From positions 1 to 29,030 of IMG/VR virus record IMGVR_UViG_3300047374_000108: 29,030 bases of DNA. One strand, 5' to 3'. A program made the translations under genes and the position numbers. Origin of the DNA: a virus. The notes beneath the pieces were generated by a model. It was not told the DNA's origin. It saw nothing but the letters and a program-made list of their open reading frames with translations, and did no database searches. Shown in pieces: positions 3,080 to 27,175 of this stretch. The number at the start of each line of letters is the position of its first letter. The first letter of the stretch is position 1.

Positions 3080-5199
3080 TACTGAGGTTGTCCTTCTTGT
3101 GGTGGTGGATTTCCTCCGTTAGCTCCGCCGCCTTCGCCGGTAAAACCGGGTGCGCCGGGCTCTGGTGCGTTACCGGGAACTGCTTGTCCCCCGCCGTTTC
3201 CAGTCGGATCTTGTACGTTTGGGCCACCTTGTTGAGCTTGCTGTGGCTGTTGCTGTTCCGGCATCATAGCGGCTACAGCGGCCATCATCTCAGCTTGTAT
3301 TGCGGCTTCTCTTGGATCGTTAAGGATCTTGTCCTCATCTAGATCCATGCTGGCGGCAATCTCACGCAGGATGTAGTCATACTTAACAAATGGAGCCATA
3401 CCGGGGTTAGCTGTCATCTGCATAAATTGCAGTAGACGTTGTGACCTTATCTCGTTTCGCATGAGGCTTTCAGTCCCCTTGGCTACGACATCGAGATCCC
3501 CTCTAATATCTTTGTCAAAATTAAATTGCATGTTGAACGCAAACAATGAGCGTCCAAGTGGAGACAACAGGTAGTCATCCACATTTCTTACAACGGCTTT
3601 AATATTCTGAGCCGCCGCGCCCATGAGCATAGACATACCGCTGGCTGTTCGACCAACGCCCATAACGCCTGTGCTTCCATGTGCAAAAGAAGGCATACCA
3701 GTAGCTTCATCCGCTAACTGACGCGCCTTATCAAAAACTTGTATACATTCGCCGGTTACGTTCGGGAACTTAGTCCCGAAGATAGCTTGACCCGGTGCCC
3801 CTGCTTGTCGGCGGAATATCTTGCCGGGATAAACAGATAGGTCTTGCCCGGGGACGAGGTTCGTCTCGTCAATCTCAATCAAGAGATTAGAAGACAGTGC
3901 CGCGTTATCGACAGCGAGACGCATGAAACCATTCATGATCTCTTGAGTGTCTTCCATATTTTCTGCAAGACCGATACCGAAGAAGCTGTAAGGATTTAGC
4001 TCGTACGGTACGGCGTGGTAAGGAATACGGCTTGGTGTGAATGGATTGACGACTAGACGTAAAACCTGACCATTACAGATCCACGCATTAACTTGTACTT
4101 CGTCTTCATCTGCTACCTCATCAGGTAGCTCAAGATCCGCTTTTTCTGCAATATCTGCATCAATAACGCCCCAGTATTCTAGAACTTCATATCTCTCTAC
4201 GTTAGAGGACATGTCGTTATCTTCTAGAGCCTCTTCCCAATATTCTGGAGTATAATTCGGGCCAAATTCAATTGCCTCTTCAATTGCCTCCTCACGGAAG
4301 AAAGGTCGTTTCTTCAATGCTCTCATCTGAGAACGGTTAAGTCTGTGTCGTTCAATTACATATTCAGTTTCAGCCATATTCCTTGCATCGGGATCTGGGT
4401 AAAAGTTCCAGATACTGACTGATTCAATCTTAGGAATGGTTCTAAAGACGGGGTCGTATTGACCTTCCTCATTCCAGTTTGGGTATTCTTTGTTAAGAGC
4501 AAATGGCCCTTTGATAATACCTGTTCCAAATAGCGACATTTCAAATGCCGTAGAACGTAAATGTTTGTTAGCTTGGCTTTCGTCTAGCTGTTCGTGGATG
4601 GTAGATTCCATCTTACGAGCGGCTTTTTGTGCGGGTTCAAATGTGAGAGCCGTCGGAGTTTTACCGGGCCCTTCTCGTAGTTTATCTTCCACACGTTCTA
4701 GTTGGTCTGCATATGGGCCAACATTCTTTAAAATCTCTGGTCGTGCTACTGTAGCTGACTTAGGTAGTTTAACTTGACCACCTGTAGCTTCGTCTACCTT
4801 GTCTTGAGTAATTTCTTTTGGATCAAAGTGTACCGCACCGGCAACGCCTAATGGTTTTTGGCTAGGCTCTATGCCAATGGGAAACTTACTACCAGCAAAC
4901 AGAACATCAACAATTTGAGCATAAGCGGCAAGTACCTTGGTCTTGGTGATCTTGATGAATGCTTGGCTCTTTTCTTTTTCAGTAAACTGAACTTCCGGCC
5001 CATACAAACCTCGGTAATTACGATACGCAGTAAGCCAACGATCCTCGTCGGACTCACGCGAAGTCTTAGAACGGTTATAACGACCTTCGACCCATCCAAT
5101 CAGACCATCAAGCTCAAATGCTTGTGGGTCGTCAGAGTCTTTCAGGCCAATACCCGCCTCTTCAATGTCTATGTCTTCTGGTCGATCTACTATTGCCAT
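3079..5199 (-). CDS. Portal protein
   Basis: A 706-residue protein directly after the large terminase gene, with the size and place of a podovirus portal (head-tail connector). It has an acidic N-terminus, a long mixed alpha/beta core, and a low-complexity Gln/Pro/Gly-rich tail over about the last 65 residues. The portal forms the dodecameric ring through which terminase packages DNA. The ATG at 5199 lies 4 bp past the terminase stop, with only a weak ribosome site (GGATA), so translation is probably coupled. The stop overlaps the next ATG by one base. No single motif proves a portal; the call rests on length, gene order and overall resemblance to marine podovirus portals. Confidence 0.82.
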   Translation of the reverse strand: MAIVDRPEDIDIEEAGIGLKDSDDPQAFELDGLIGWVEGRYNRSKTSRESDEDRWLTAYRNYRGLYGPEVQFTEKEKSQAFIKITKTKVLAAYAQIVDVLFAGSKFPIGIEPSQKPLGVAGAVHFDPKEITQDKVDEATGGQVKLPKSATVARPEILKNVGPYADQLERVEDKLREGPGKTPTALTFEPAQKAARKMESTIHEQLDESQANKHLRSTAFEMSLFGTGIIKGPFALNKEYPNWNEEGQYDPVFRTIPKIESVSIWNFYPDPDARNMAETEYVIERHRLNRSQMRALKKRPFFREEAIEEAIEFGPNYTPEYWEEALEDNDMSSNVERYEVLEYWGVIDADIAEKADLELPDEVADEDEVQVNAWICNGQVLRLVVNPFTPSRIPYHAVPYELNPYSFFGIGLAENMEDTQEIMNGFMRLAVDNAALSSNLLIEIDETNLVPGQDLSVYPGKIFRRQAGAPGQAIFGTKFPNVTGECIQVFDKARQLADEATGMPSFAHGSTGVMGVGRTASGMSMLMGAAAQNIKAVVRNVDDYLLSPLGRSLFAFNMQFNFDKDIRGDLDVVAKGTESLMRNEIRSQRLLQFMQMTANPGMAPFVKYDYILREIAASMDLDEDKILNDPREAAIQAEMMAAVAAMMPEQQQPQQAQQGGPNVQDPTGNGGGQAVPGNAPEPGAPGFTGEGGGANGGNPPPQEGQPQ

Positions 5200-11696: not shown

Positions 11697-11724
11697 ATTA
11701 TGCATATAAAAAGCCCCGAGTAAA
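11697..11724 (-). promoter_or_regulatory. Candidate promoter for the DUF932 gene
   Basis: Minus-strand TTTACT (11719-11724), 16-bp spacer, CATAAT (11697-11702). The -35 box lies in the stem of the upstream terminator, so the two signals overlap. Confidence 0.4.
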
Positions 11725-11734
11725 TACCCGGGGC
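11706..11734 (-). terminator. Intrinsic terminator after GP88 operon
   Basis: Minus-strand stem of about 10 bp (11713-11734, outer part GCCCCG/CGGGGC, one G-T pair, ATTT loop) followed by TTTTT. It separates the GP88-like and DUF932-like transcription units. Confidence 0.82.
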
Positions 11735-11768
11735 CGATTATTATTAGGGGCGTTAGTAGAGGCGTTAT

Positions 11769-11882
11769 CTACAGCGAACCGGCCACCCATGACAGCACCA
11801 CCCACCAAAAAACAAAAAAGCCGATAAAAGTATATAAAGGCCGCAACGTTCCGAGCGGGTATTTTTTGGGGCGTTTCATCAT
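11769..11882 (-). CDS. 37-residue membrane micro-protein
   Basis: A 37-residue frame, basic N-terminus (MMKRPKKYPLG) then one strongly hydrophobic aromatic segment (about residues 16-37, with FFVFWWVVLSWV) and TAG at 11769. Its ATG overlaps the GP88-like stop (ATGA), and a strong terminator follows, so gene spacing supports it. The charge pattern predicts an N-in single-span peptide. Such peptides can be toxins, holin modulators or membrane exclusion proteins; none is shown here. Confidence 0.55.
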   Translation of the reverse strand: MMKRPKKYPLGTLRPLYTFIGFFVFWWVVLSWVAGSL

Positions 11883-12601
11883 GCCACCGATAGGGCCGGG
11901 ATTAGATCGGCATCAATAATAAAGCCGGATTTATCCGCTTTAGCTAACGGGCCTTTTGCCTTTAGTCCGATAATGACGGGCCCGGCCTTGCTGTTTACTA
12001 GGTCGCTGGCGTCGCCATCTATTACCGGGCGGCCCAAAAATTCCGCCGGGAATTCATCGCGAAACACCACGGCCACCGGAACCCCGGTTTTAAGGGCGGC
12101 GGAAACTTGCGCCGCATATTGTGCCCGGCCCGAGTAACTAAACATAAGGCGGTAATTGTCCGGGGTTTTATTTAACCGGGCCGCCCTTTTGGTGTAGTCA
12201 TAAAAATATATTTCCGGGAATAGTTCCGGGATATATCCGCCCTCGGCCTTTTCCCATGCAATATCACTAAGGACATTTAAACGGGCGGCGGGTTTTAATC
12301 CGGCCCGGTTGCACGTTTTAATAAAGGCGGACAATTCACGGGTTAACCGTTCCAAAAATTGGGCCCGGTCGTTGTGCCATAAATCGGCCCGCCATTGTCG
12401 CCCGGCGGCCACGTTATCAAACCGGCCACGCCCGGCGGATTTTAAACAGCCCTCGAAACATCCGGCCGCTTTACTGCCCGGGCATAATATCCGGTCGGGC
12501 ATTAAAGAAAGGGACGCCACCCGATAGGCCGCGCCCTTGTTAGTTTTTGCAATCTTAGTATTTCCCCCGGACGTATCCAGCAATTTTAAATGTTTATTCA
12601 T
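11879..12601 (-). CDS. GP88-family-like protein
   Basis: A 240-residue protein resembling the phage 'gene product 88' (GP88) family as I recall it: an N-terminal Asn/Lys-rich start, a cysteine triad C40-x7-C48-x3-C52 within CPGSKAAGCFEGCLKSAGRG, then a helical region and an alternating alpha/beta C-terminal half with VPVAVVFRDEFP. The cysteine triad could bind an iron-sulfur cluster or zinc; biochemical function is unknown to me. The ATG at 12601 is preceded by GGAG about 11 nt upstream in the shared leader, and a promoter lies at 12663-12690. Codon use is GC-rich like the rest of the island. Confidence 0.72.
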   Translation of the reverse strand: MNKHLKLLDTSGGNTKIAKTNKGAAYRVASLSLMPDRILCPGSKAAGCFEGCLKSAGRGRFDNVAAGRQWRADLWHNDRAQFLERLTRELSAFIKTCNRAGLKPAARLNVLSDIAWEKAEGGYIPELFPEIYFYDYTKRAARLNKTPDNYRLMFSYSGRAQYAAQVSAALKTGVPVAVVFRDEFPAEFLGRPVIDGDASDLVNSKAGPVIIGLKAKGPLAKADKSGFIIDADLIPALSVA

Positions 12602-12690: not shown

Positions 12691-12890
12691 GCTTTTGTTC
12701 ATTAGTTAGGGGCGCATTTACCCGGGCCCGGTTTTTTGATTTTTTCTGCTATCACCCCCATGAGGGCGTAGCTACACCCCTAAGTGTAGGCTAGTTATCC
12801 CTAGGTAAGGTATTTTGTGTTTGACGCGCCAGTTTTTTTAGAGTACCAAAATGACACAAAATTTAACTGAATGGAGGAAGTAAGGGGTCA
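12691..12890. other. Divergent intergenic region
   Basis: Non-coding DNA between the minus-strand GP88-like gene and the plus-strand gene at 12891. It holds the palindrome CCGGGCCCGG followed by T-rich DNA (12722-12746), a 6-bp inverted repeat CTACAC/GTGTAG (12772-12789) and copy 1 of the TTTGACGCGCCAGTT repeat. Base composition switches from GC-rich to A/T-rich within it, marking the island boundary. Confidence 0.5.
12820..12834 (+). repeat. TTTGACGCGCCAGTT repeat, copy 1
   Basis: A 15-bp element identical to 13308-13322. TTGACG could be a -35 box; at 17 bp downstream there is only a poor -10 (TACCAA). The two copies precede the two plus-strand genes at 12891 and 13373, so they may be promoter parts or regulator/recombinase sites. 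Confidence 0.55.
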
Positions 12891-13130
12891 ATGCCCAACA
12901 GAAAAAGTAATGAGAGAACAAATTTGCCAGCTAAAGAGCTAAAGCTAACTATAGCCGAAGCAGAAGACTTTGTTATGGCTATCAATGATGCAATAGACAT
13001 AGCTCAAAAGGGTGATACAGCCGAGATCATACTCGTAGGACGCACCCGAGTAGCGACTAAATCAGGTAACACTGATCATGAATTTAGAATTTACCCCGAC
13101 AAAAAGTCACAGATTCTAAAATTAGTCTAA
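12891..13130 (+). CDS. Small protein next to integrase, unknown
   Basis: A 79-residue protein with a polar start, a helix (TIAEAEDFVMAINDAIDIAQ) and probable beta strands (AEIILVGRTRVATK, HEFRIY). I see no helix-turn-helix and recognise no family. The ATG at 12891 has two purine-rich segments upstream, GGAGGAA and AAGGGG, both able to pair with loops of the candidate RNA encoded on the opposite strand at 13141-13290. Its position before int would suit a regulator or directionality factor, but that is only context. Confidence 0.6.
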   Translation: MPNRKSNERTNLPAKELKLTIAEAEDFVMAINDAIDIAQKGDTAEIILVGRTRVATKSGNTDHEFRIYPDKKSQILKLV

Positions 13131-13140
13131 TAATTCATTA

Positions 13141-13290
13141 AAAAATAAAAAAACCCCGGTGTTTATCCCAAAATGGGCACCGGGGTTAGTTTTTGGTGTC
13201 ATGAAAAGGGGGAGTCTGACACCTCGCAGTCGTTGAGAGTGGGAGGAATACCCTCAACACCATCAAGGTTACTAAAACGCCCCTAGTAAG
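13141..13290 (-). ncRNA. Candidate structured small RNA with anti-SD loops
   Basis: On the minus strand a promoter-like sequence (13297-13324) is followed by four stem-loops in a row and a canonical terminator. Stems: TTACTA/TAGTAA (13269-13289); GTTGAG/CTCAAC (13232-13258) with loop containing UUCCUCCC; GGTGTCA/TGACACC (13195-13223) with loop containing CUCCCCCUU; and AACCCCGGTG/CACCGGGGTT (13152-13187) followed by TTTTTTTATTTTTT when counted with the stem end. No ORF fits. The two C-rich loops match GGAGGAA and AAGGGG in the leader of the neighbouring gene at 12891. Alphaproteobacteria are known to make small RNAs with CCUCC-type loops. The transcript is predicted, not shown; the plus strand would fold too. 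Confidence 0.5.
13152..13187. terminator. Bidirectional intrinsic terminator
   Basis: A 10-bp stem AACCCCGGTG/CACCGGGGTT with an inner CCCA/TGGG hairpin. On the minus strand it runs into a long T-rich tract (TTTTTTTATTTTTT); on the plus strand it is followed by TTAGTTTTT. It can end the gene at 12891 and, more strongly, a leftward transcript from 13290. Confidence 0.88.
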
Positions 13291-13296
13291 TCAACT

Positions 13297-13324
13297 ACTA
13301 TACGATATTTGACGCGCCAGTTAA
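13297..13324 (-). promoter_or_regulatory. Candidate promoter of the minus-strand RNA
   Basis: Minus-strand TTAACT (13319-13324), 16-bp spacer, TATAGT (13297-13302), preceded by ATATCG as at P1 (TTATCG before TATAAT). It overlaps the TTTGACGCGCCAGTT repeat used in the opposite direction, so the two promoters would compete. Confidence 0.42.
13308..13322 (+). repeat. TTTGACGCGCCAGTT repeat, copy 2
   Basis: Identical to 12820-12834, 488 bp away, in front of the integrase. Confidence 0.6.
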
Positions 13325-13337
13325 TTTGGTTTATCGT
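13309..13337 (+). promoter_or_regulatory. Candidate integrase promoter
   Basis: Plus-strand TTGACG (13309-13314), 17-bp spacer, TATCGT (13332-13337). The -35 is good, the -10 weak, fitting a regulated or activator-dependent promoter. TATCGTGTAAC here resembles TATCGTTTAAC in the operator at 26389-26405. Confidence 0.42.
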
Positions 13338-13372: not shown

Positions 13373-14461
13373 ATGACAAAATACTTAGAAAAAAGGCATA
13401 AAGCCGATGGAACGGTCTTCTGGGCCTTCAATCCTAACCAGAGTGTTCGCAAGGCACTCGGTTACAAATATAAATCCTTCCCAAGCAAACGCGATGCCGA
13501 ACTTAGGTGTCGGAAAGTTGCCGCTGAGTTCAATTTGTACCTCAGAAAGAAAGCTGAGAACGTACAGATCAGTGAAGACAGCGTACTTGGGCTGATTAAT
13601 TTCTATAAAACCACCAAAGAATGGCAGAAATTGGCTGAAAATAGTCAAATTCACTACAATTTGGGGCTCAAAACGGCCACTGAGTTCAGTATAGGCAACT
13701 CAAACAAGACATTTGGCGAGTTAGACGCCAATTCCATTACTGCAACCAAGGCTGACGCACTCTACACGCAGATTTTCAAGGCATTTAGTGAACATCGGGC
13801 GGCTAGTTGTGTAAAAGTACTCAGAAAAGTGTGGAACGAGGGATTTAAGCACGACAGAGTACGCGCTAACCCCTTTAGTAACATGAGAATACCCGACTTA
13901 CCGTCTCGAACAGTGCTTTGGGATCCCGAACAGGTACAAACGATGATTGATACGGCCGATGAAATGGGTTTTTCATCTATCGGTACCGTCACATTGCTCT
14001 GTTATGACTTATGTTCTCGTCCCGGGGACATGAGACAGTTAATCTGGGACAACTATGACGGTGTGTATATGGACTACATACAAGAGAAGAATAAAACTCA
14101 TGTCACTGTACTTACTTCGCCTAGACTAACTGCTCGTCTCGCTACACTAAGAGATGCGGCAAACGGCGGCGAAAAGCGTCCAAAAGACTCGATCATCATA
14201 TCTGAAGTAACTGGACGCCCTTACACGAAGGACTTCCTTACCAAATCGTTTGCGAGGATACGTCGTCAAGCCGGGTTACCTAGTCATCTTCAGTTACGAG
14301 ATCTGCGCCGTACAGGTGCAACTGAAATGGCCGAGGCTGGGTGTACTGAGGATGAACTAAGATCAGTAACCGGGCACCAGTCCCGAGAGATCCTAGCGAC
14401 CTACGTTAGACCTACCGCCAAGCTGGCTACTTCAGCCGTCAACAAGAGGTTTGCGTCATGA
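13373..14461 (+). CDS. int: Tyrosine-family integrase
   Basis: A 362-residue site-specific recombinase. The N-terminal half carries arm and core-binding domains (a basic start, YKYKSFPSKRDAE, then a helical SAM-like domain about 68-165). The catalytic C-terminal part shows R216 (CSRPGD), a Lys around 239-241, R309-x-x-R312 (LRDLRRTGAT), H335 (TGHQS) and Y344 (ATYVRP). The box usually written H-x-x-R has Arg in first position, a variant I recall from alphaproteobacterial integrases. It should integrate the phage at the attP located 393 bp downstream. The ATG at 13373 has GGAG 8 nt upstream within a dyad. Its stop overlaps the next small gene (ATGA). Confidence 0.93.
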   Translation: MTKYLEKRHKADGTVFWAFNPNQSVRKALGYKYKSFPSKRDAELRCRKVAAEFNLYLRKKAENVQISEDSVLGLINFYKTTKEWQKLAENSQIHYNLGLKTATEFSIGNSNKTFGELDANSITATKADALYTQIFKAFSEHRAASCVKVLRKVWNEGFKHDRVRANPFSNMRIPDLPSRTVLWDPEQVQTMIDTADEMGFSSIGTVTLLCYDLCSRPGDMRQLIWDNYDGVYMDYIQEKNKTHVTVLTSPRLTARLATLRDAANGGEKRPKDSIIISEVTGRPYTKDFLTKSFARIRRQAGLPSHLQLRDLRRTGATEMAEAGCTEDELRSVTGHQSREILATYVRPTAKLATSAVNKRFAS

Positions 14462-14604
14462 TGGGCGTCGAGCATCTAATTGGGGGCCTACTCGCATTAC
14501 TGGGCTTACTACTTCTGTACCTTCAGGCCGTTGTTATGGAAGAAGAGAAGCGCGGGAAACATATTCCTCTGTTCTGGGAAAGGGAATTCTGGAGGAAGAA
14601 ATGA
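14458..14604 (+). CDS. 48-residue membrane micro-protein after integrase
   Basis: A 48-residue frame starting at ATG 14458, overlapping the integrase stop (ATGA) and ending TGA 14604, which in turn overlaps the ATG of the next gene. AGAGG lies about 8 nt upstream. Residues 7-26 form one hydrophobic segment (LIGGLLALLGLLLLYLQAVV) and the tail is charged (EEEKRGKH ... REFWRKK). Overlaps on both sides argue for real translation. Function unknown. Confidence 0.62.
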   Translation: MMGVEHLIGGLLALLGLLLLYLQAVVMEEEKRGKHIPLFWEREFWRKK

Positions 14605-14831: not shown

Positions 14832-14910
14832 TAACAGTGACTTAGCGGTATATTGGTTGCGGGAGTAGGATTTGAACCTACGACCTTCAGGGTATGTACT
14901 TACTGTTATT
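14830..14910. repeat. Inverted repeat flanking attP
   Basis: AATAACAGT (14830-14838) and ACTGTTATT (14902-14910) form a perfect 9-bp inverted repeat enclosing the attP core. The right arm is followed by TTTT. It may bind integrase or an excision factor, or form a long-loop terminator after the int operon. Confidence 0.55.
14854..14892 (-). other. attP: Phage attachment site (attP core), initiator tRNA 3' part
   Basis: Read on the minus strand, 39 bases match the 3' part of a bacterial initiator tRNA-Met: anticodon-stem arm CCTGA, variable loop AGGTC, T-arm GTAGG-TTCAAAT-CCTAC, acceptor strand TCCCGCA, then A and CCA. Immediately 5' of it CAT is also present. There is no tRNA 5' half, so it is not a tRNA gene. 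A tRNA 3' end next to an integrase gene is the classical attP form: integration restores the host tRNA. The acceptor 3' strand ending in A72 fits the C1-A72 mismatch of initiator tRNAs, though a U1-A72 elongator cannot be excluded. Confidence 0.85.
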
Positions 14911-14960
14911 TTTCAATAACTTAGATGTTAATAAATGGGTCGAACGCATAACTAATGTAA

Positions 14961-14977
14961 TTACTATAATTTAGTAA
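14961..14977 (+). promoter_or_regulatory. 17-bp dyad over a TATAAT box
   Basis: TTACTA-TAATT-TAGTAA, a perfect 6-5-6 inverted repeat containing TATAAT (14965-14970). No good -35 box is seen at the right distance. The layout matches the dyads at 13352 and 26366-26405. Confidence 0.42.
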
Positions 14978-14982
14978 AGTAA

Positions 14983-15011
14983 TTGACTAGTGGCGTTTTT
15001 CATGGTAAAAA
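14983..15011 (+). promoter_or_regulatory. Candidate promoter for the primase operon
   Basis: TTGACT (14983-14988), 17-bp spacer, TAAAAA (15006-15011), about 50 bp before the primase ATG. TTGACTAGT is shared with P2 on the minus strand at 9875-9883. A short GC-rich stem (GCTC/GAGC, 15020-15034) lies in the leader. Confidence 0.45.
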
Positions 15012-15064
15012 AGCGAGGCCGCTCCGGGGCCGAGCTACCCCTTAACCGGTAATTTGGGCGGAAT

Positions 15065-17925: not shown

Positions 17926-20043
17926 ATGACTAGAATATTTGTTGGTGACCTTGAGACTACTGTGCAGTTTGAGGATCATGGGAAGGACAACAGCCCGAAG
18001 CACCCGAAGAATAAAATCGTGTCAGCACACTGGCGCGTTATAGAGGATGGAGTAATTGGCCCAGCAAGACGGGCTATATTTCATCATGATGAGAAACCAA
18101 TCGGGGACACCCGTTACCCTATCCAAGATGACTTAGACCGGTGTAGCGTGAGCGTCTGGCATAATGCCAAGTTCGACGTATCATGGATGTTGGAAGCCGG
18201 TTTCGATATACCAAATAAGGTGTACTGTACTATGATTGGCGAGTACATCTTAGCAAGAGGACAACGTCAAGAACTGTCCCTGAAGGCTACTGCCGAACGA
18301 AGGGATGTAACCCGTAAAAAATCCGATTTAATCGATGAGATGTTCAAGAAGAAGATTGGCTTCGAGAAGATGCCGCTTGATACAGTCATTGAATACGCAG
18401 ACGCAGACGTTCTATCCTGCGCCGAGATTTACCAAGCCCAGCAAGAAGACCTGACCAAGGACTCAAACAAGGGGCTAAAACCCGTCTTCACTCTCATGAA
18501 TGAAATGCTCCTGTTCCTAGTGGAGCTAGAGAGAAACGGGATCGCTATCGATATTGAGACGCTACACAAAGTGCGTGATGAATATCTGGCTGAGAAGCAA
18601 TCTATAGAGAAACGTCTAGACGATATCGTAGCTGACGTAATGGGCGACACCCCCATCAACTTAAACTCTGGTATCGACATGACGGCCGTCGTTTATTCAC
18701 GCTCAGTAAAGAACCGGGATTACCATAAGAATGCGTTTAACATTGGATTGAACGCCCGGGGTAAACCACTCCCACCACCGCGTATGAGCCCAGCGCAGTT
18801 TGCGAATACAGTGCGTAAGTCTACACGCCGGGTAATGCGAACCATCGCTCATCATTGCGATTACTGCAAAGGTAAGGGAAAGGTACAAAAGATTAAGGTT
18901 AATGGTGAGCCCTACAAGAACCTATCTAAATGCGCTCACTGTGACGGCAAAGGTTATACACTTACTGAGACTGGACAAGTAGCCGGGCTAAAGCTCGTAC
19001 CTACTACACCAATGGATGCCAGTATCAACGGTTTCAAGACTGATAAGATTACGATCAAGAAACTGATTAGTCAGGCTGAACAAAAAGATAATTTAGTAGC
19101 GGTAGAGTTCCTAACTAAGATGTCTAGGCTGAATGCTATCAGTACTTACCTAGACTCGTTTATTAAGAATATAGATCAGTCTACAAGAAAGACCGGGCTA
19201 CTCCACGCCCAGTTTAACCAGACTATCACTCGTACAGGGCGACTATCTTCTAGCAACCCGAACTTCCAGAACATTCCAAAAGGATCCAAGTTTCCCGTAC
19301 GGAAAGCCGTACACTCTCGCTTTGATGGCGGGACGATTATGGAAGCGGACTTTAGCGGTCTTGAGTTTAGAGTAGCTGGAGAACTTTCTCGTGACGATCA
19401 AATCATCAATGACATCCAAACAGGCAAGGATGTTCACAAACAAACGGCTTCGATTATTAATCAATGTGATGTGGCGGATGTTGATAAGGATATGCGACAG
19501 GCGGCCAAGGCGTATACTTTCGCTCCGTTATATGGCGGTATGGGTGCCAATGAACCACCGCATGTTCAAGCCTATTTCAAAGAGTACTTTAAAATCTACA
19601 AAGGACTCGCGGAGTGGCACAAACAATTGATGAACGGTGTACTGGCGGATGGTATCGTAAGGATCCCGTCGGGCCGTGAGTTTTATTTCCCGGGTGCTAA
19701 ACGACTTCGTAACGGCCGGGTAACTAATGCCACCGCAATTGTTAATTACCCGTGCCAGAGTTTCGCTACAGCGGATCTGGTTGTGTTGTCCTGTGTGAGA
19801 GCCTTGCGTCGTTTCAAGGAAGATAAATTACAGAGCAAAATGATCCTGACAGTACACGATTCCATTGTGGTTGATGTGTACCCGGGAGAAGACAAACAGG
19901 TAATCGAAGCGATTAAATGGTCGATGCAGGAACTACCAGAAGAGGTAGAAGAACGCTTTGGCTATAAGATGTTGTTACCGTTAGATATTGAGATCAATCA
20001 AGGCCCAAATTGGATGGAACAAATTGAGATCCCGATTGACTAA
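17926..20043 (+). CDS. Family A DNA polymerase with DnaJ-like zinc insertion
   Basis: A 705-residue replicative polymerase. The 3'-5' exonuclease has D8-x-E10, N80-x2-F-D84 and Y157-x3-D161. Residues 311-343 carry two DnaJ-type units, C311-x2-C314-x-G-x-G and C336-x2-C339-x-G-x-G, an insertion reported for HMO-2011. The polymerase domain has motif A D475 (EADFSGLE), motif B R524-x3-K528-x3-F532-x3-Y536-G and motif C H644-D645-S646. F532 corresponds to E. coli Pol I F762, a site discussed as a lifestyle marker in marine phages. The ATG follows the previous stop directly. Confidence 0.96.
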   Translation: MTRIFVGDLETTVQFEDHGKDNSPKHPKNKIVSAHWRVIEDGVIGPARRAIFHHDEKPIGDTRYPIQDDLDRCSVSVWHNAKFDVSWMLEAGFDIPNKVYCTMIGEYILARGQRQELSLKATAERRDVTRKKSDLIDEMFKKKIGFEKMPLDTVIEYADADVLSCAEIYQAQQEDLTKDSNKGLKPVFTLMNEMLLFLVELERNGIAIDIETLHKVRDEYLAEKQSIEKRLDDIVADVMGDTPINLNSGIDMTAVVYSRSVKNRDYHKNAFNIGLNARGKPLPPPRMSPAQFANTVRKSTRRVMRTIAHHCDYCKGKGKVQKIKVNGEPYKNLSKCAHCDGKGYTLTETGQVAGLKLVPTTPMDASINGFKTDKITIKKLISQAEQKDNLVAVEFLTKMSRLNAISTYLDSFIKNIDQSTRKTGLLHAQFNQTITRTGRLSSSNPNFQNIPKGSKFPVRKAVHSRFDGGTIMEADFSGLEFRVAGELSRDDQIINDIQTGKDVHKQTASIINQCDVADVDKDMRQAAKAYTFAPLYGGMGANEPPHVQAYFKEYFKIYKGLAEWHKQLMNGVLADGIVRIPSGREFYFPGAKRLRNGRVTNATAIVNYPCQSFATADLVVLSCVRALRRFKEDKLQSKMILTVHDSIVVDVYPGEDKQVIEAIKWSMQELPEEVEERFGYKMLLPLDIEINQGPNWMEQIEIPID

Positions 20044-27098: not shown

Positions 27099-27175
27099 GC
27101 GCCCGTAGCTCAGTTGGATAGAGCGTGTGGCTACGAACCACAAGGTCGGGAGTTCGAATCTCTCCGGGTGCGCCA
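27099..27175 (+). tRNA. tRNA-Arg: tRNA-Arg (anticodon ACG)
   Basis: A complete 77-base cloverleaf: acceptor GCGCCCG/CGGGTGC, D-stem GCTC/GAGC, anticodon stem TGTGG/CCACA with loop CTACGAA (anticodon ACG), variable loop AGGTC, T-stem GGGAG/CTCTC with loop TTCGAAT, discriminator G and encoded CCA. It starts 5 bases after the terminator T-run and ends one base before the stop of the opposing gene. With A34 modified to inosine it reads CGU, CGC and CGA, the Arg codons used in the capsid gene. Expression would require read-through or rightward transcription from a promoter not seen. Confidence 0.95.

Follow-up and report, generated by a model that had tools for sequence, protein, structure and literature searches.

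Organization of the integrase locus

The window analysed here, a stretch of 29,030 nucleotides, is listed in IMG/VR as a virus record, and its gene content is that of an HMO-2011-type podovirus. This assignment agrees with its integrase, which is related to those of CRP-3 and CRP-235, and DnaJ-like CXXCXGXG motifs, a feature of the HMO-2011 type, are visible in the DNA polymerase open reading frame (ORF) at 17926–20043. The nearest annotated relatives of the integrase are found in the Roseobacter phages CRP-235, CRP-3 and CRP-212, with 42–46% amino-acid identity; CRP-3 integrates into a host tRNA-Met gene (PMC6918029). Between the integrase gene and a small gene upstream of it, the minus strand carries a predicted small RNA (sRNA) gene with its own promoter. 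The features of the locus are as follows.

12891–13130, plus strand: 79-aa upstream protein, with no Pfam or PHROG match
13147–13261, minus strand: predicted small RNA of about 115 nt (fold z-score, conservation, and an Rfam ar14 match with nearly the same ends)
13147–13187, minus strand: intrinsic terminator, with a stem at 13187–13152 and a T-run to 13147 (relatives keep the T-run on the minus side)
13195–13223, minus strand: hairpin 2, with loop CUCCCCCUU at 13214–13206 (three pairs changed on both sides)
13232–13260, minus strand: hairpin 1, with loop UUCCUCCC at 13248–13241, the anti-Shine-Dalgarno seed (pairing, wobble and loop conservation)
13266–13294, minus strand: predicted sigma70-type promoter of the sRNA, with −35 TTGACT at 13294–13289, a 17-nt spacer and −10 TAACCT at 13271–13266 (conserved in relatives)
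13269–13289, no strand assigned: dyad TTACTA-N9-TAGTAA, a possible operator (found in most members of the window's subgroup but not across the family)
13309–13337, plus strand: divergent integrase promoter TTGACG-17-TATCGT (promoter scan; TTGAC box aligned in relatives)
13373–14461, plus strand: tyrosine integrase (Pfam PF00589, E 3e-13; PHROG 1, E 5.5e-29)

The start of the small RNA, estimated from the −10 box, falls at 13260–13264, and its 3′ end lies in the T-run. The minus strand of 13131–13325 folds more stably than its shuffles (z −3.8), and the trimmed RNA at 13147–13261 reaches a z-score of −4.1, with 0 of 200 shuffles as stable. The predicted RNA comprises three hairpins, two of them presenting seed loops and the third forming the terminator; UUCCUCCC is fully unpaired in the predicted fold and CUCCCCCUU largely so. 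No ORF of at least 60 aa lies within the element, and such reading frames as the RNA has are short or interrupted by stops. A preliminary description, made from the sequence, had placed here a minus-strand phage small RNA with two C-rich anti-Shine-Dalgarno loops and a terminator, in a region without an ORF, and in each of these respects it is borne out, the RNA itself by conservation, covariation, strand-specific wobble and the polarity of the terminator. Of the four stem-loops it counted, all exist as structures, but the first is the promoter dyad of the window's subgroup, which leaves three in the RNA. This dyad (13289–13269), kept with matching changes of its outer bases in much of the subgroup, lies between the −35 and −10 boxes of the sRNA promoter and is therefore probably not transcribed.

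The promoter itself required revision. A minus-strand sigma70-type promoter is present, as had been proposed, but the boxes found by scanning at 13324–13297 (TTAACT-16-TATAGT) are not conserved in relatives. The conserved −35 is that at 13294–13289, whose TTG is kept in 41 of the 42 relatives aligned, with its distance to the first hairpin almost constant, and it moves the transcript start, previously put near 13290, to about 13260–13264. The −10 box of the window, TAACCT, is weak, and relatives have better ones (for example, TATACT).

An exact 15-bp repeat, TTTGACGCGCCAGTT, occurs upstream of the 79-aa gene (12820–12834) and in the −35 region of the integrase promoter (13308–13322), and many relatives have a related sequence, TTGACGTGCGAGTA, close to where the upstream gene ends; the repeat is possibly a regulator site. 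Relatives carry a small gene of about 60–90 aa at the position of the 79-aa gene, and a scan with the 79-aa protein itself matched only the window's own twin contig. A type I toxin–antitoxin pair formed by this gene and the sRNA was rejected, because the protein is small, acidic and soluble-looking and because many relatives have a separate terminator ahead of the sRNA at which the upstream message can stop.

Conservation and covariation of the minus-strand unit

Viral loci with related integrases were collected in two overlapping sets, 69 fetched first and 80 then obtained from a profile scan. A scan of bacterial genomes for integrase relatives found none, which left no host or prophage context to draw on. 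Most related phages have the minus-strand unit upstream of their integrase gene, among them the isolates CRP-3 (at 258–339 of its genome), CRP-235 and CRP-212, and the integrases of its carriers are only about 44–65% identical to that of the window. The conserved unit opens with a TTG(A/C)-type −35 box and a spaced −10 box; a hairpin whose loop reads (U/C)CUCC(C) comes next, then either a linker or another hairpin, and finally a G+C-rich hairpin followed by a T-run. The loop of hairpin 1 keeps CUCCC in relatives, and hairpin 2 is absent from compact members such as CRP-235. L016 and L066 have an extra small ORF inserted between the promoter region of the sRNA and the integrase gene, and the sRNA stays with the upstream gene.

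A detector combining the promoter, a YCUCC hairpin loop and the terminator was applied to 67 distinct integrase-upstream regions, of which 44 were positive on the minus strand and none on the plus strand or after shuffling; the 44 loci share descent and are not independent trials, and the strand contrast is the stronger argument. Over eight phage genomes or contigs (802 kb, both strands counted) the detector gave seven positives, six of which fall at the sRNA site. A detector match at 47979 in CRP-235 was rejected as a plain inverted repeat between genes. Among the detector-negative regions, variants are recognisable by eye in L019–L021, L043, L048, L074, L128–L136, L176 and L190, and L027, L037 and L134 were found by the covariance model described below; the variants in L128 and L153 have a shorter UCUCC seed only. 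L017, L018, L023, L185 and L188 appear to be without the unit. Two exact-pattern scans of the viral collection returned contigs that all gave an integrase match as well.

The stems are supported by compensatory change. Every cell of the first stem is paired in the compact group (100%), with 11 double-sided changes, a level that 0 of 500 shuffles reach; slid alignments drop to 17–39% paired. The window's subgroup has eight pairs with double-sided changes (0 of 500 shuffles), slid alignments here dropping to 33–53% paired, and its hairpin 1 is paired in 98% of cells, with G-U against A-C cells at 29:0. Overall, the wobble cells read on the minus strand are G-U in 49 cases and A-C in one, an asymmetry of 49:1 which argues that the structure is kept as minus-strand RNA. 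The RNAs of representative relatives fold with z-scores of −2.9 to −7.1, and in nearly all of them the C-rich stretch is free of pairing. The terminator is polar too: at least six T in eight follow it on the minus side in 37 of 56 relatives and on the plus side in 3 of 56. The stronger minus-strand T-tract on which the preliminary description had partly relied is thus a property of the relatives, the window being an exception in that T's also follow its plus-strand copy of the terminator.

A covariance model was built from 14 relatives. Outside this training set it matched CRP-3, L045, L047, L049–L051, L059, L134 and L175 with E < 1e-5, in the same place and on the same strand. The model had no match in CRP-1, CRP-2, CRP-207, CRP-345, CRP-603 or HMO-2011, whose integrases are more distant, and the unit is therefore not universal in the group. 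A weak match of model R1 at 11708–11777 on the minus strand was rejected as a strong ordinary intrinsic terminator (fold z −1.1) after the GP88-family gene at 11879–12601 (Pfam PF17338). The gene boundaries, strand and structure, the conservation beside the integrase and the conserved anti-Shine-Dalgarno loops are established by computation, and the sequence comparisons make it very probable that a conserved, phage-encoded small RNA gene is real.

Relationship to known small RNAs

At their own thresholds, no Rfam family reaches its cut-off at the sRNA site. With relaxed thresholds the best match is ar14 (RF02344), which runs end to end over 13147–13267 on the minus strand with an E-value of 4.3e-5. 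The match remains below the cut-off, at 34.3 bits against a gathering score of 58.8, and the window RNA, which probably works like an anti-Shine-Dalgarno sRNA, is therefore not filed as an ar14 member. The link to alphaproteobacterial small RNAs with CCUCC-type loops, drawn earlier from the sequence, accordingly finds support in a full-length but sub-threshold match.

AbcR1/2 and the RsaE-type sRNAs of Staphylococcus have a seed of the CUCC/UCCC kind in C-rich loops and act on many ribosome sites; the phage RNA shares this kind of seed but has no sequence match to them at Rfam thresholds. Its likeness to the ar14/NfeR1 RNAs of Rhizobiales lies in C-rich, CCUCC-type hairpin loops followed by an intrinsic terminator, and NfeR1, an ar14 member, silences mRNAs at the ribosome site through its C-rich loops (PMC10746234). 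However, ar14 has three seed loops, all with the identical sequence CCUCCUCCC, whereas the phage RNAs have one or two, and those of the window differ from each other (UUCCUCCC and CUCCCCCUU) and precede the terminator. The window RNA is, moreover, phage-borne and adjoins an integrase gene.

The plan of two stem-loops with an anti-Shine-Dalgarno motif in each is that of the Rhodobacter sphaeroides sRNA RSs0680a (PMC3927594), one of the cuckoo/CcsR RNAs of Rhodobacter, which belongs to the same bacterial order as the known phage hosts. CcsR RNAs are processed from the transcript of a DUF1127 gene and act in stress defence (PMC10253847). The phage RNA, in contrast, has a conserved promoter of its own and no adjoining DUF1127 gene, the upstream gene being on the opposite strand and without a Pfam match. 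These resemblances would fit a phage copy of the host's cuckoo/CcsR- or ar14-type RNAs that takes over or titrates the host targets of those RNAs (stress and metabolism mRNAs) or their chaperone, and both the end-to-end ar14 match and the role of CcsR in stress defence lean that way. We consider such a copy unlikely: ar14 matches only the window RNA, L122 (27.0 bits) and L049 (24.2 bits), and most family members have no match.

Phage RNAs that act by base pairing include c4 of P1 and P7, which turns complementary loops against a ribosome site (reviewed in PMC12197685), and AsxR and AgvB of Stx phages. Whereas c4 targets the ant mRNA of its own phage, and AsxR and AgvB sponge host sRNAs, the window RNA has a generic anti-Shine-Dalgarno seed, for which no conserved phage partner was found. 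An independent gene with promoter and Rho-independent terminator, and a conserved seed exposed in a loop, place it, on sequence grounds, among trans-acting anti-Shine-Dalgarno sRNAs. In the openly licensed literature we found no published description of a small RNA of the HMO-2011 group, and a 2022 comparative paper on the group is without the words 'promoter', 'noncoding' and 'sRNA'. A common origin with the phage tRNA-Arg (anticodon ACG), which lies at 27099–27175, flanked by the early module and a long minus-strand gene, was rejected, as the two share no 10-mer.

Predicted mode of action and candidate targets

The best explanation of the locus, and one that we hold to be likely as a whole, is a phage-encoded sRNA that represses translation in trans by anti-Shine-Dalgarno pairing; for this predicted RNA we infer transcription in cells, action in trans and translational repression. 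A sigma70-type promoter of its own, divergent to that of the integrase, would drive its independent transcription, and an intrinsic terminator of its own would end it. One or two hairpins would hold the (U/C)CUCC(C) seed single-stranded in the loop as a mimic of the 3′ end of 16S rRNA. By pairing with the Shine-Dalgarno regions of selected mRNAs, of the host or of the phage itself, the seed would block 30S loading and so turn their translation off.

Sequences complementary to the loops occur nearby. GGAGGAA at 12873–12879, which matches loop 1, and AAGGGG at 12882–12887 lie upstream of the 79-aa gene, exact matches that had been reported one or two bases away, and GGAGGAA also precedes the genes at 14601 and 8277, as described before. 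A 7-nt GGAGGAA match is expected for any strong Shine-Dalgarno site, and these candidate targets are ordinary. The preliminary description had the RNA control neighbouring lysogeny genes. In that form, a real RNA would repress the integrase or the 79-aa gene through their ribosome sites and so set lysis against lysogeny; the unit always adjoins the integrase and is divergent from it, and some pairings are strong (−22.4, −18.7 and −20.0 kcal/mol in L046, L054 and L059, respectively). Comparison across relatives, however, makes this doubtful. At the integrase ribosome site, taken across 42 loci, the RNAs pair with their own sites no better than with swapped ones (269 of 2,000 permutations as good). 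Over 41 orthologue groups from eight genomes or contigs, the mean for the own loop is −8.46 kcal/mol against −8.45 kcal/mol for swapped loops, in predictions whose start sites were picked by a simple rule and which are unreliable singly. The ribosome sites of the upstream gene and of the integrase vary freely among relatives, and that of the upstream gene is no conserved complement of the loop. None of the neighbouring genes has a ribosome site that covaries with the loop, which makes mRNAs of the host, or several of the phage, more probable targets than one neighbour; the null result for coadaptation points to a generic seed for several messages, perhaps those of the host. Control of lysogeny genes by the predicted sRNA is possible.

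A large tail-type gene starting MAGYTRQS (L003, L002, L074 and L054) has the ribosome site CAGGGAG(A/C) before its start codon. In the RNAs of CRP-3, CRP-235 and CRP-212 this site is matched by CUCCCUG, and in the form AGGGAGAA it comes close to a match with the L054 RNA; the gene is a weak candidate target.

Beyond translational repression by the sRNA, it is conceivable, as a speculative extension, that a temperate HMO-2011-group lineage domesticated an alphaproteobacterial cuckoo/ar14-like anti-Shine-Dalgarno RNA and made it a core component of the integration module, where it might serve as a broad switch of host and phage translation in choosing or keeping lysogeny. The HMO-2011 group is among the most abundant phage groups of the ocean, and a conserved anti-Shine-Dalgarno RNA next to the integrase offers a tangible way into the question of how such phages control translation and lysogeny. 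Direct testing is possible, as the carriers CRP-3, CRP-235 and CRP-212 share one cultured host, FZCC0040, and CRP-3 integrates.

Two further readings do without a minus-strand RNA. That the hairpins belong to a plus-strand RNA, either a leader or a CsrB/RsmY-like sponge exposing GGGAGGA to a CsrA-type protein, is highly improbable: the plus strand folds too (z −3.2), as had been remarked, and a looped GGA agrees with a CsrA site, but the wobble cells favour the minus strand by 49 to 1, none of the 67 regions has a plus-strand unit, T-runs lie on the minus side, and in many relatives a distinct plus-strand terminator stands upstream of the unit. Equally remote is a DNA element, such as attP or a recombination or replication site, for although attP is often found next to int, and inverted repeats may act as arm sites for a recombinase, DNA would not be expected to show strand-asymmetric wobble pairs, and the published attL/attR primers of CRP-3 (2829–2849 and 3642–3662) bracket an attP far from the sRNA of that phage. 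In CRP-3 (MK613345.1), attP falls between 2849 and 3642, around the gap before the primase gene, and the window has a noncoding gap before its primase gene, at 14832–15064, in the same relative place.
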